A DNA stretch of 43,813 nt from Actinomycetes bacterium (GTDB lineage: Bacteria; Actinomycetota; Actinomycetes; S36-B12; GCA-2699445). The stretch covers positions 1 through 43,813 of the forward strand of contig JAHZLH010000018.1 in NCBI GenBank assembly GCA_022599915.1, written 5' to 3'. The position numbers were made by a program, and so were the translations under genes. Within the stretch, counting starts at the first letter, position 1. Every line of letters begins with the position of its first letter. Below are positions 1 to 25,466 of this stretch, in pieces. The notes beneath the pieces are model-generated. The model searched no databases. It had not been told where the DNA came from and was given only the letters and a program-made list of their open reading frames with translations.

Positions 1-490
1 ACGTCCCGACCTCGAAGGTCCTGGTTCCCACCTGTTGAAAACCGTGCTTGCGATAGAAGCTAATAGCTCGGTGGTTCGCCTGATTCGTCCCCAACCAAAT
101 CCCGCTTCGACCTAAGCCGCGAGCACGCTTCTCCGCACTCTCTAAGAGGGCCGCACCTACCCCTTTTCCGTGTGCCTCAGCGACAACATAGATGCGTCGC
201 AGCTCAATGAGATCATCCCCCTTAACGGCCGGACCTCCCGCGGAGCCGTCTACCAACATGGAGTAACCCACGGCCGCACTCTCGCCGACACCCGCCAAGT
301 AGAAATCCGTTCCCGCGGAACTCATGTGCTCACCGAACGCCACTTCGCTCAAACTGTGCTGAATGAAGTCTTGGATATCTTCCGACGCAGTATCCGGTGG
401 GCAGGCTAGCGGGAAAGTTCGCTCCGCAATGTTTGCGAGCTGTGAGATGTCTATTGCGGTTGCCTGTCGCACCGAGATGTCGTTTGACAC
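1..490 (-). CDS. GNAT family N-acetyltransferase (C-terminus cut by window edge)
   Basis: Reading the minus strand from a GTG at 488-490 gives an uninterrupted 163-residue frame that runs off the left edge. The central stretch RRIYVVAEAHGKGVGAALL is the acetyl-CoA binding motif A of the GNAT fold (the HGKGVG part corresponds to the usual Q/RxxGxG/A). It is followed by the typical ANHRAISFYRKHGF segment of motif B, so probably only a few C-terminal residues are missing. An in-frame TAG lies three codons upstream of the GTG (TAG TCT GAA GCC GTG), which fixes the start at this GTG even though there is no good Shine-Dalgarno sequence. Acetyl transfer from acetyl-CoA to an amine is known for the family; the substrate cannot be deduced. 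The gene faces away from the rest of the window and shows no clear link to the origin cluster. Confidence 0.85.
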   Translation of the reverse strand, partial: MSNDISVRQATAIDISQLANIAERTFPLACPPDTASEDIQDFIQHSLSEVAFGEHMSSAGTDFYLAGVGESAAVGYSMLVDGSAGGPAVKGDDLIELRRIYVVAEAHGKGVGAALLESAEKRARGLGRSGIWLGTNQANHRAISFYRKHGFQQVGTRTFEVGT

Positions 491-11244: not shown

Positions 11245-11361
11245 GCGTCCTCCCGAGTACCGACTTTCAGGGTATACGGGTGACGCCGCAATGCCCAGAT
11301 CGACTGATTGCGGCCCCAGTAGGGCATGATGGGAGCAGCAACTGGAACCGGGAGGGACGCC

Positions 11362-11640
11362 GTGCCAGAATCGCGTCGCCGAAAAAGGGCTGCCTACACG
11401 CCGCCGCCGACGGGTAAGTCGAGCGAAGAGGACGAGCAGAAGAAGGTTCCGGTCAAAATCGGAAACTCACGCTGGCTAGCACCGCTGATGGTTGCGATGT
11501 TCATCATCGGACTTGCCTGGATTGTCGTGTGGTACGTATCGCCGGACAACGCTTTGATGGCGCCATTGGCCGGCTGGAACGTGGCCATCGGTTTCGTTTT
11601 CATTGGCATCGGCTTCGTGTTGTCCACAAAATGGGAGTAG
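11362..11640 (+). CDS. crgA: Cell division protein CrgA
   Basis: 92 residues: a basic N-terminus (MPESRRRKRAAYTPPP), then two membrane helices (about 38-58 and 70-86) ending at the short tail STKWE, the usual CrgA shape. CrgA is an actinobacterial divisome protein that interacts with FtsZ, FtsQ, FtsI/PbpB and wall proteins, and restrains Z-ring assembly in Streptomyces. The GTG start is chosen because GGGAGGGA lies seven bases upstream and the conserved N-terminus begins there; the frame remains open further upstream. The last codons contain a DnaA-box-like TTGTCCACA (11620-11628), where a longer DnaA-box cluster begins. Confidence 0.95.
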   Translation: MPESRRRKRAAYTPPPTGKSSEEDEQKKVPVKIGNSRWLAPLMVAMFIIGLAWIVVWYVSPDNALMAPLAGWNVAIGFVFIGIGFVLSTKWE

Positions 11641-11920
11641 TTTTCCACAAGCACGGCCTTGCTGGGCATAACTAGCCACTGGACCCCCACGCAACGTATT
11701 TGAGTACACGTTTTCCGTAGAATCTGCGGAATCCGTCGATAGATTCGGTGCTCCCCCCCTGATGACGCCTGCAATTGCCGCTAGCGGGTGAGCTCTAAGC
11801 AGCTGGCGAGTCTCTCCTGCTGCAGCATTATCCACAGGGCAGTGGATATGTGGATGATTACCCACACCTGTGTAGTTACATGTGGGTAGTTATCCGCAGT
11901 TGGGGATGAGTTGTGGATAA
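11620..11920. promoter_or_regulatory. DnaA-box cluster between crgA and the EamA gene
   Basis: This noncoding stretch of about 300 bp contains two perfect 9-mers (TTATCCACA at 11828-11836; its reverse complement at 11912-11920) and five boxes with one mismatch: 11620-11628 (TTGTCCACA), 11641-11649 (TTTTCCACA), 11849-11857 (reverse), 11858-11866 (TTACCCACA) and 11890-11898 (TTATCCGCA). A two-mismatch reverse copy lies at 11881-11889. Five occur within 93 bp. It is about 12 kb from dnaA. A DnaA-titrating or regulatory locus, or a second unwinding site, are possible readings; which one is not visible. Confidence 0.75.
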
Positions 11921-11930
11921 ATCCGCTGGC

Positions 11931-11936
11931 TAAACT
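11931..11936 (+). promoter_or_regulatory. -10 element of a probable leaderless promoter for the EamA gene
   Basis: TAAACT fits the actinobacterial TAnnnT -10 pattern and ends five bases before the GTG start at 11942. No Shine-Dalgarno precedes the gene, so transcription would begin at or near the start codon. A perfect DnaA box (11912-11920) lies where the -35 region would be. Confidence 0.45.
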
Positions 11937-11941
11937 GACGG

Positions 11942-12901
11942 GTGCGCTTCAACACGGCATCCCGCGAAGGTCTGGCGATACTCCTCGTCGTTTTGGGAGT
12001 CGTGGCTTTCTCCGTGAATGCCGGGGTCTCCCGAATCGTGCTCGATGCCGGGGTGACACCTGCCGTTCTCTCTGGCGTACGGGCGGTCGGAGCGGCTGGC
12101 TTCTTGGCGTTGGCAGTGCTGATCTTTCGCCGGGCCCACTGGCGGATTCCCCGGCATGACCTGACGGTTCTGGTGGTCTACGGACTCGTGGGTCTGGGAG
12201 CACTGCCGCTGTTCTACTTCGAAGCTATCTCCCGGATCCCGATCGGATTGGCGCTCTTGCTGGAGTACCTAGCGCCGCTGTGGGTGGCGCTGTGGGCTCG
12301 ATTCATCCGCAAGCAGCCGGTGAACCGATTGCTCTGGCCCGCCGTCGGACTCACCGTCCTTGGTTTGGGAATCATCGCAGCCACCGGCTTGGCCGACCTC
12401 GATCCGATTGGCGTCACAGCTGGGCTGGGGTGCAGCGTCGCGTTCGCAACATACTTCATCTTGGGTGAGCGCCTGGTGCAGCGCTCCGACCCGATCGTGG
12501 TGACCTTTTGGGGCTTCACTATCTCCGGCCTGCTGTGGACCTTCGTGGGTCTCACCGGTGTCGTAGGCGCATGGTGGTCGGTGTCATTGACCGCCGACGC
12601 CCAACTACCTGCGTCACTCGGTGCGGTCGTGTTTCCGCTCGGTGGCCTCTTGCTCTGGGTGATCTTACTGGGAACTGTGATCCCCTTCGGCGCCGAAACC
12701 GCAGCTATGCAATTCATCCCGGCAACGTTGGTGAGTGTGCTTGCCACCGCCGAGCCCATCGGCGCCGCGCTAGTGGCCTGGTGGCTTTTCGATCAGAGCC
12801 TTACCGGCTCGCAAATTGTCGGTGGTCTAGTGGTAGTTCTGGGAATCGTGTTGGCTCTGCTCAGCAGACCCAATCAGCACTTGCCCGCGCCCATCGAGTA
12901 G
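11942..12901 (+). CDS. EamA/DMT family transporter
   Basis: 319 residues with ten hydrophobic helices arranged as two five-helix EamA repeats; the second begins near LDPIGVTAGLGCSVAFATYFILGERLV. The C-terminal repeat has the common ATAEPIGAALVAWWLF segment. These drug/metabolite exporters often move amino acids or metabolites, but the substrate cannot be read. The GTG start has no ribosome site and is probably leaderless (see the -10 element). The last 75 bp overlap the 3' end of the convergent rhomboid gene. This gene is not part of the usual crgA neighbourhood (mycobacteria have a DUF881 gene nearby), so it looks like a lineage-specific insertion; codon use shows no obvious break. Confidence 0.9.
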   Translation: MRFNTASREGLAILLVVLGVVAFSVNAGVSRIVLDAGVTPAVLSGVRAVGAAGFLALAVLIFRRAHWRIPRHDLTVLVVYGLVGLGALPLFYFEAISRIPIGLALLLEYLAPLWVALWARFIRKQPVNRLLWPAVGLTVLGLGIIAATGLADLDPIGVTAGLGCSVAFATYFILGERLVQRSDPIVVTFWGFTISGLLWTFVGLTGVVGAWWSVSLTADAQLPASLGAVVFPLGGLLLWVILLGTVIPFGAETAAMQFIPATLVSVLATAEPIGAALVAWWLFDQSLTGSQIVGGLVVVLGIVLALLSRPNQHLPAPIE

Positions 12902-13735
12902 CTCACTTTGAATCGCGCTGGTGCGCACCATCATCATCGTCACGAGTACACCGCACACTGCCAGGACTCCCAGGGTCTGCCACAACACCTGACTGTCTTT
13001 GGGAGCGTAGGCCATAATTGCTGCTACCACAGCACCCACAGCGGCCCCGCCGAGATGCGCCCGCCAATCGATTCCTGCCACTACAAAGCCGATACCGATG
13101 TTGATAGCCAACAGCACCGCAATCTGCGTGACGTCGGCTTTAAGCGAATGTCCTGCCACCAGCAGGGCCGCCATCAGACCAAATATCGCGCCACTGGCTC
13201 CGACGGACAACGTGTTAAGCGGGCTGAAGGTATAGGAAGCGATGCTGCCGCCAAGCGCCGCTAGCAGGTACAACACCACGAACCGGACATGCCCCAGGAT
13301 TGATTCCAGCGGCCGACCTACCAGCCAGAGCACCAGCATGTTGAAGCCAATATGAAGCAAACTGCCGTGCAAGAAAGCCGCAGTGAAGAGGCGCCACCAT
13401 TCGCCTCCCAACGAGACCGCCGCCGGATACATGCCCCACTGCCGGATGACCGCATCCATACCGGCGACCATTTCCACGATGAACAGACCAACATTGATGC
13501 CGATCAGGACCTTAGTGACGTAAAAGTCCCGGATGGGTTCGCCACCCATTGGAGTTACTACCTGCCGGGTTTGCTGCTGTCCCTCACGGACGCACTCCGG
13601 GCACTGAAAGCCGACCGGTGCCGCTGACATGCAGTCAGGGCAGATCGGGCGGTGGCAACGCGAGCAGGAAATATAGGTCTCGTGGTCCGGGTGCCGATAG
13701 CAGGTGGGTGCTACCGCCTGGCTGTCGTCGTTCAG
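12827..13735 (-). CDS. Rhomboid intramembrane serine protease with N-terminal zinc-binding domain
   Basis: The membrane core shows the catalytic Ser in GASGAIFG and the His in [13 protein letters not shown], with the expected helices, so this is an active-type rhomboid that cleaves membrane proteins within the bilayer. Upstream of the first ATG (13630) the same frame encodes a Cys/His-rich module ([16 protein letters not shown], then CPEC after the ATG), typical of actinobacterial rhomboids. No ATG, GTG or TTG exists in that frame between 13631 and the in-frame stop at 13823-13825. A CTG at 13733-13735 in a CTGA overlap with the cyclophilin stop is the best start, giving 302 residues. Starting at the ATG would remove three of the four zinc knuckles. 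The 3' end overlaps the EamA gene. Confidence 0.85.
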
Positions 13736-22948: not shown

Positions 22949-23118
22949 GGTTCCTCCAGCGATCTGCCCGCTCATCCTGCCATACCGGGTCCGATAGGAA
23001 ATCGCCTGTCCGCAGCCTTTTGAAATGGCAACTAGATCGATAACTCACTGTGTTGCGGGAACGGGACACCATCCACATTCCCTTAGGTGAATTAAGTTTC
23101 TAGGAGTTAAGTGGTTCG

Positions 23119-23152
23119 TAGTAGTCATAGGTACTGGGGATAGTGTGGAAAA
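23119..23152 (-). promoter_or_regulatory. Candidate DnaA-trio unwinding element next to a DnaA box
   Basis: Reading the minus strand, a box TTTTCCACA (23152-23144) is followed by a 13-base spacer and then CTA-TGA-CTA-CTA; the complementary strand reads TAGTAGTCATAG. This order (box, GC-containing spacer, repeated 3'-GAT-5' triplets) matches the basal unwinding system described for B. subtilis oriC. Only three of four triplets fit, so the match is partial. Confidence 0.4.
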
Positions 23153-23304
23153 CACCCGATTTGCGCTGGGTTTATGCGTGTCTCTATCCAGAGCCAACCT
23201 GTGTAGTTCTCAGCCGGACTGTGTACGAGTGTGGATAAGCAGCTTCGACAGTAAAACTTTTCCCTGTTTGCAGGGAACTACAAGATTGTGTTTCCAGCAC
23301 CTGT

Positions 23305-23326
23305 CAACAGGTAGTCAACAGGTAGT
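23305..23326 (+). repeat. Tandem 11-bp direct repeat in the origin region
   Basis: CAACAGGTAGT occurs twice head to tail (23305-23315 and 23316-23326), one helical turn apart. The first copy also forms the right half of an inverted repeat, ACCTGT-CA-ACAGGT (23299-23312). Confidence 0.85.
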
Positions 23327-23369
23327 TACAACTGGTGGCGGGGACTCATGTCTATGCGAGTAACAGCGG

Positions 23370-23480
23370 TCATTGGTACAGGGATCGAACGCGGTTGTTC
23401 CAGCCGTAGCGAACCCCTGCCACAGCTACCAGCACGACGGCTGCCGCGACGGCTGGGATTTCCCAATCAGATTTTTCCAT
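23370..23480 (-). CDS. Possible 36-residue single-pass membrane peptide (weak)
   Basis: An ATG at 23478-23480 opens a frame with a hydrophobic helix (IPAVAAAVVLVAVAGV) and a basic end (NNRVRSLYQ). AGAGG lies immediately before the ATG, too close for a normal ribosome site, and no promoter is apparent. It sits inside the putative origin. It could be a real microprotein or chance; I lean towards chance. Confidence 0.25.
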   Translation of the reverse strand: MEKSDWEIPAVAAAVVLVAVAGVRYGWNNRVRSLYQ

Positions 23481-23619
23481 ACCTCTGATGTACCGCGATA
23501 GTCCGACGGTTAAACATCTCAAGCTCACCACTATTGAAGAACTGTCCAGTGAAGTCAGGTGGCGCCACGGGGCACCGTGGGCGGCTTGCGGGAGGCCACG
23601 GCCGGCCCGCAAGGGGTAC

Positions 23620-25101: not shown

Positions 25102-25466
25102 ACGCTCCCCTTCGAGGTGCCATCACCGATGTTGCTGTGTGAGTACACAGCAACATCCACAACCTGTGGATAGTTCACGAGTAGGTTTGACCCCCAACAG
25201 GTAGTCCTACTTTTCCCTCCGGTGCGGTGCGACAGTAGTCCTCCGGGCTGGGGGTTCGTCAAGCGAGATTCCAATATTTCTTTGCATGTTCGTAACTTTT
25301 TCGGCGTGTCGACTTAAACCGGCGGGGTCAGTTACCTATCTTGACCACCCCTAGGGCCGTGAAATGTCGATTTTCGGTCACATAGGGTTTGACCACATCG
25401 GGCCAGGTTCCGTACCGTAGGGGGATTGCCCGTTGGGTACATCGTGTGGAGGAAGAGGAAACGACC
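25102..25466. promoter_or_regulatory. Divergent dnaA/rpmH regulatory region
   Basis: 365 bp of noncoding DNA. On the dnaA side a box with one mismatch (TGTGGATAG, 25165-25173) and a poorer ACATCCACA (25153-25161) form an inverted pair. On the rpmH side a good promoter is visible: TTGACC (25389-25394), 18-bp spacer, TACCGT (25413-25418), about 50 bases before the rpmH ATG. A second TTGACC (25341-25346) has no matching -10 that I can see. A pronounced dnaA -10 was not identified. Confidence 0.6.

Follow-up and report, generated by a model that had tools for sequence, protein, structure and literature searches.

The window analysed here, a stretch of 43,813 nucleotides that forms contig C18 of a 2.44 Mb genome in 75 contigs, carries pknB, trpG/pabA, a class E sortase gene, crgA, an EamA permease gene, a rhomboid protease gene, two tRNA genes, gyrA, gyrB, a DUF721 gene, recF, dnaN, dnaA, yidC and jag, which is the usual gene order of an actinobacterial origin region. 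The nearest named relatives of the genome are uncultured MAGs labelled Micrococcales NAT138 and Candidatus Nanopelagicales. Judging by comparison with relatives, the cell-division gene crgA more likely starts at 11362 than at the first codon of its longest open reading frame, and a cluster of DnaA boxes extends from the end of this gene to the EamA gene (Table 1). Among the loci examined, an EamA gene was seen to separate the boxes from the rhomboid gene in the window's genus only.

Table 1. Positions, in the window, of the box cluster, its neighbouring genes and the probable origin
Feature	Position	Strand	Remarks
crgA	11326..11640	+	longest open reading frame; Pfam CrgA, E 8.7e-25
DnaA box	11620..11628	+	TTGTCCACA, at most one mismatch; lies in the crgA reading frame and may be incidental
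DnaA box	11641..11649	+	TTTTCCACA, at most one mismatch; adjoins the crgA stop codon; identical in same-genus G001 and G002
DnaA box, perfect	11828..11836	+	TTATCCACA; aligned copy retained in same-genus G001 and G002
DnaA box, one mismatch	11849..11857	-	TCATCCACA
DnaA box, one mismatch	11858..11866	+	TTACCCACA; back to back with the 11849 box
Weak DnaA box, two mismatches	11881..11889	-	CTACCCACA; back to back with box I
DnaA-box triad, conserved core	11890..11920	+	box I (+), 2 bp, box II (-), 2 bp, box III (-)
Box I of triad	11890	+	TTATCCGCA, at most one mismatch
Box II of triad	11901	-	TCATCCCCA, two mismatches
Box III of triad	11912	-	TTATCCACA, perfect
EamA permease gene	11942..12901	+	between the boxes and the rhomboid gene
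Rhomboid protease gene	12827..13630	-	usual convergent neighbour of crgA
dnaN-dnaA gap, probable oriC	22976..23619	.	not part of the element; GC skew minimum; near-consensus boxes at 23144 and 23230

A DnaA-box cluster apart from the origin

Seven DnaA boxes with at most one mismatch to TTATCCACA lie within 301 bp (11620-11920), five of them within 93 bp and two of them perfect, at exactly the positions given in an earlier sequence-only reading of this DNA; three additional boxes with two mismatches (11841, 11881 and 11901, all on the minus strand) fall within the cluster. This is far beyond chance: in 40 simulated sequences with matched composition, no stretch of 301 bp held more than three boxes, and the whole window contains 24 boxes against a mean of 10 in composition-matched simulations. 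Genome-wide, the density is an outlier, which answers a test that the same reading had asked for. In pattern searches of the whole genome, TTRTCCACA occurred 16 times, three of them in the cluster (reversed control: 25), and the triad at 11890-11920 was the sole match to its pattern. The box at 11620 may be incidental, since it sits inside the crgA frame, in the conserved ...STKW part just before the stop at 11640, and its position reads CTCTCCACA in same-genus relatives.

The cluster is also denser than the dnaN-dnaA gap, which has two near-consensus boxes in 648 bp (one to six in relatives), and on this ground it could be taken for a second or even the true replication origin. However, cumulative GC skew reaches its minimum at 22–24 kb, in the dnaN-dnaA gap and not at the cluster, and then rises, and the mycobacterial counterpart described below is distinct from oriC (PMC7738170). 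The gap is the probable main origin, and an origin at the cluster is exceedingly improbable; the sequence-only reading, which had noted the greater density and still doubted a main origin here, was right on both counts. Upstream of dnaA, a convergent box pair at 25153-25173 (ACATCCACA / CTATCCACA) probably marks an autoregulated dnaA promoter. Some genomes of family f5 have the full triad there, so the triad geometry is not exclusive to the crgA locus.

Conservation and geometry of the triad

All 60 relatives have crgA, as do 197 of the 198 genomes of the class. Across 126 crgA loci, some of which come from related genomes so that counts are not independent events, box density just downstream of crgA was 6.44 per kb versus 0.27 and 0.31 per kb in nearby control stretches (∼20-fold), with 291 boxes observed versus 9.3 in shuffles. 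At least one box was found downstream of crgA in 113 of these loci, a minority of class genomes being without the element here, and the conservation at crgA that the sequence-only reading had proposed to look for is thereby established. In same-genus and same-family sequences, the boxes form islands of identity within diverged spacer. In the other classes of the phylum, clustered boxes were absent from 12 of the 14 loci with a CrgA relative, and both exceptions (L178 and L180) belong to one family.

Spacing between box pairs at the 126 loci peaks sharply, at 12 or 13 bp for tandem pairs and at 10 or 11 bp and again at 23 bp for convergent pairs. Combined, these distances describe a class element of three boxes in ∼32 bp, two tandem and one inverted, which reads box, 1–2 bp, inverted box, 3–4 bp, inverted box. 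Its outer boxes are offset by 23 bp, and with respect to crgA the element can point either way. Offsets are 0(+), 10–11(-) and 23(-) in most of the class and 0, 11 and 22 in the window, where the plus strand reads TTATCCGCA-gt-TGGGGATGA-gt-TGTGGATAA. When 198 whole genomes were scanned, the strict triad pattern matched 94 places in 83 genomes, 56 of them at most 400 bp from crgA, whereas the reversed pattern had zero matches in any of the 198.

The three boxes differ in strength. Among 66 loci with the window's orientation, the consensus occurs in box III at 47, in box II at 9 and in box I at none, and position 7 of box I is C at 45; these triad fits are the best of many placements and overstate the fit, so they are indicative, and the 126-locus and strict-pattern figures are less biased.

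The boxes could conceivably be an RNA hairpin or a crgA terminator, an inverted repeat that only resembles DnaA boxes. Convergent genes often need terminators, and the stretch at 11820-11940 folds well as RNA (z -4.9), because of an 18-nt inverted repeat at 11849-11898 built from two back-to-back box pairs (TGTGGATGATTACCCACA / TGTGGGTAGTTATCCGCA); this repeat was not seen in the same form in same-genus relatives. Against a hairpin, boxes I and II mismatch at position 7 in 26 of 66 loci and show no clear covariation (identities near expectation at most positions, with a modest excess at the third), box III is the best conserved yet lies outside the I/II stem, and DnaA binds the mycobacterial site. 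Searches at the element found no terminator-like site or T-run, and no Rfam family was found for it. We rejected the hairpin or terminator, which has very little probability, on the lack of clear covariation and of a T-run. Taken together, graded box strength and the lack of clear I/II covariation point to a protein assembly seeded at the strong site.

Other arrangements were seen in the same searches. Directly adjoining the left side of box I, a flank of TGTNAT or GTGTAG is conserved across the class; it may add a fourth weak DnaA site to the three boxes or be bound by another protein. In families f19 and f20, another type of site is found repeatedly at a distance from crgA, where two perfect boxes converge with a 23 bp offset but the middle box is missing (G109:C11:159685, G128:C6:67991, G208:C17:75856, G232:C1:2640706, and others). 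Genome G005 has many TTGTCCACA pairs 28 bp apart on contigs C6, C26, C36, C41, C43, C49 and C68, probably a dispersed repeat of that genome.

Gene context and the mycobacterial counterpart

The rhomboid gene was convergent to crgA in all 71 loci where it was detected, and the boxes lie inside the 3'-3' gap in 51 of the 52 loci whose rhomboid end is at most 450 bp from crgA. In three genomes (G009, G025, and G005), genes intervene between crgA and the rhomboid gene, and the element or a box cluster is still in the interval, 1.5–6 kb from crgA; in G053, whose crgA and rhomboid genes share a strand, the 3' end of the rhomboid gene still has two boxes. Because the element typically lies between convergent 3' ends and stays in the crgA-rhomboid interval despite inserted genes, it did not originate as a promoter. 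As the conserved role, a DnaA-regulated promoter, one of the options offered by the sequence-only reading, is not supported. In the window's genus, the boxes end ∼20 bp before the EamA start, and DnaA is known to regulate promoters elsewhere, so the cluster could still act as a DnaA-regulated promoter of the EamA gene. As the main role this is improbable, though EamA might be under a secondary, local control, given that among the loci examined EamA is confined to one genus at this place, that the usual context is between convergent genes, and that expression of Rv0010c and Rv0011c, the genes flanking the corresponding site, is unaltered in Mycobacterium tuberculosis dnaA mutants (PMC7738170).

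That site, Rv0010c-Rv0011c, is one of five M. tuberculosis regions strongly bound by DnaA in vitro, and homologous regions are bound in vivo in M. smegmatis (Hicks et al. 2020, PMC7738170). Recurrent clinical mutations lie 65 bp upstream of Rv0010c, where two box-like sequences form a palindrome, and reconstructed palindrome mutants are longer and phenocopy dnaA mutants that resemble hypomorphs (PMC7738170). Hicks et al. leave titration or nucleotide exchange open and report no obvious correspondence in other species (PMC7738170). In our dataset, the CrgA of locus L106 aligns along all 93 residues with that of structure 2MMU and differs from it at few positions, and the locus carries TCATCCCCACTGTTGATAGCGCTTGTGGATAA, starting 65–66 bp before the next start codon. 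By this CrgA match and by position, we equate the mycobacterial copy of the element with the published DnaA-bound site, and the mutated palindrome would, by position, correspond to boxes I and II. On this sequence evidence, the present data supply a class-wide counterpart of the Rv0010c-Rv0011c site.

A proposed DnaA-control element and its known analogues

The box triad downstream of crgA is probably an ancient DnaA-control site of the class Actinomycetes, neither a promoter nor a second origin. We consider it likely that the window's cluster is the local copy of such an element, oriC-proximal, non-coding and cis-acting, which acts on DnaA in one direction or the other. DnaA would dock on the strong box III and extend cooperatively onto the tandem, weaker box II and then onto the inverted, weak box I, so that a defined three-subunit complex would form on ∼32 bp, with the extra boxes to the left helping in the window's genus; the complex would alter the amount of active DnaA free for oriC. 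We infer that DnaA binds here in the window organism and that three subunits assemble, and we likewise infer which way DnaA activity is shifted.

As to that direction, the cluster could act near oriC as a sink that takes up DnaA passively, or inactivate DnaA in the manner of datA; duplicated early after initiation, it would lower free or active DnaA and delay re-initiation. It lies ∼11 kb from oriC in the window (the dnaA-crgA distance in relatives is also roughly 8–16 kb), it has more near-consensus boxes than the dnaN-dnaA gap, and the window's genus carries extra boxes, all of which suit this reading. A plain sink, however, needs box number and affinity rather than fixed spacing, and here the spacing is conserved and box I is kept weak; the E. 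coli datA box spacing, as scanned, differs from that of the element; and mycobacterial site mutants resemble low-activity dnaA alleles, not over-initiation (PMC7738170). We regard a sink or inactivation site as rather unlikely, but as the chief competitor of the reactivation discussed next. The titration proposed by the sequence-only reading keeps a place in its simple form. Three boxes of fixed spacing and graded strength, however, point to a specific assembly of DnaA more than to a plain sink.

Reactivation through a head-to-head contact of boxes I and II, by analogy with the E. coli DARS cores, is a tentative proposal that we find somewhat likelier than titration or inactivation. It is favoured because of the low-activity-like phenotype of the M. 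tuberculosis mutants and the conserved weak box I, and it is opposed by closeness to oriC, a position better matched to early duplication of a sink or of a datA-like site. Conceivably, then, Actinomycetes have their own DARS-like locus by crgA, which might reactivate or otherwise switch DnaA through the I/II contact without IHF or Fis.

Actinobacterial control of DnaA activity is poorly known, and a class-wide element of fixed geometry is a concrete, testable candidate for a missing control step. The mycobacterial site, at which mutations in clinical isolates alter cell length and drug susceptibility, had no known counterpart elsewhere and is now placed in an evolutionary frame. If the element is DARS-like, it would mean that DNA-mediated DnaA switching reaches far beyond gammaproteobacteria.

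DARS are DnaA-reactivating sequences that promote ADP release from DnaA. In the K-12 sequence, the cores of E. coli DARS1 and DARS2 have boxes at 0(+), 14(-) and 26(-). In orientation topology (PMC5742627), they share with the element an intergenic three-box core with one inverted box against two tandem ones and a convergent I/II pair, box I being inverted relative to II and III. In contrast, the I-II gap is 1–3 bp in the element versus 5 bp in DARS, the outer offset is 22–24 versus 26, the strongest box is III and not II, and DARS1 and DARS2 are far from oriC whereas the element is near it. We do not file the element as a DARS, because spacing and chromosomal position differ though topology agrees.

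datA stimulates DnaA-ATP hydrolysis with IHF. Like the element, it is an intergenic DnaA-box cluster outside oriC that adjoins gene 3' ends; unlike the element, it depends on IHF and is not near dnaA, and its box spacing as scanned is different. The boxes of the E. coli datA region (L185) lie at 1178+, 1245+, 1407+ and 1419-, an arrangement that the window element does not have.

In Streptomyces coelicolor, the DnaA-box clusters H69, H24, and D78, outside oriC in the central chromosome, reportedly affect initiation frequency (a finding attributed to Smulczyk-Krawczyszyn et al. 2006). At the probable Streptomyces loci in our set (g43), crgA is followed by several boxes, but their triad is less regular. 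As S. coelicolor crgA lies on cosmid H69, one of the three clusters may be the crgA locus.

Compared with the Rv0010c-Rv0011c site, the window copy is richer in boxes, which are also stronger, and has another neighbour, the EamA gene, and its binding by DnaA is predicted. In both, the boxes lie immediately downstream of crgA and near dnaA (11–14 kb), and the cluster contains a convergent, palindromic pair with a further box at conserved spacing; the Mycobacterium-like L106 has the triad at the published position.
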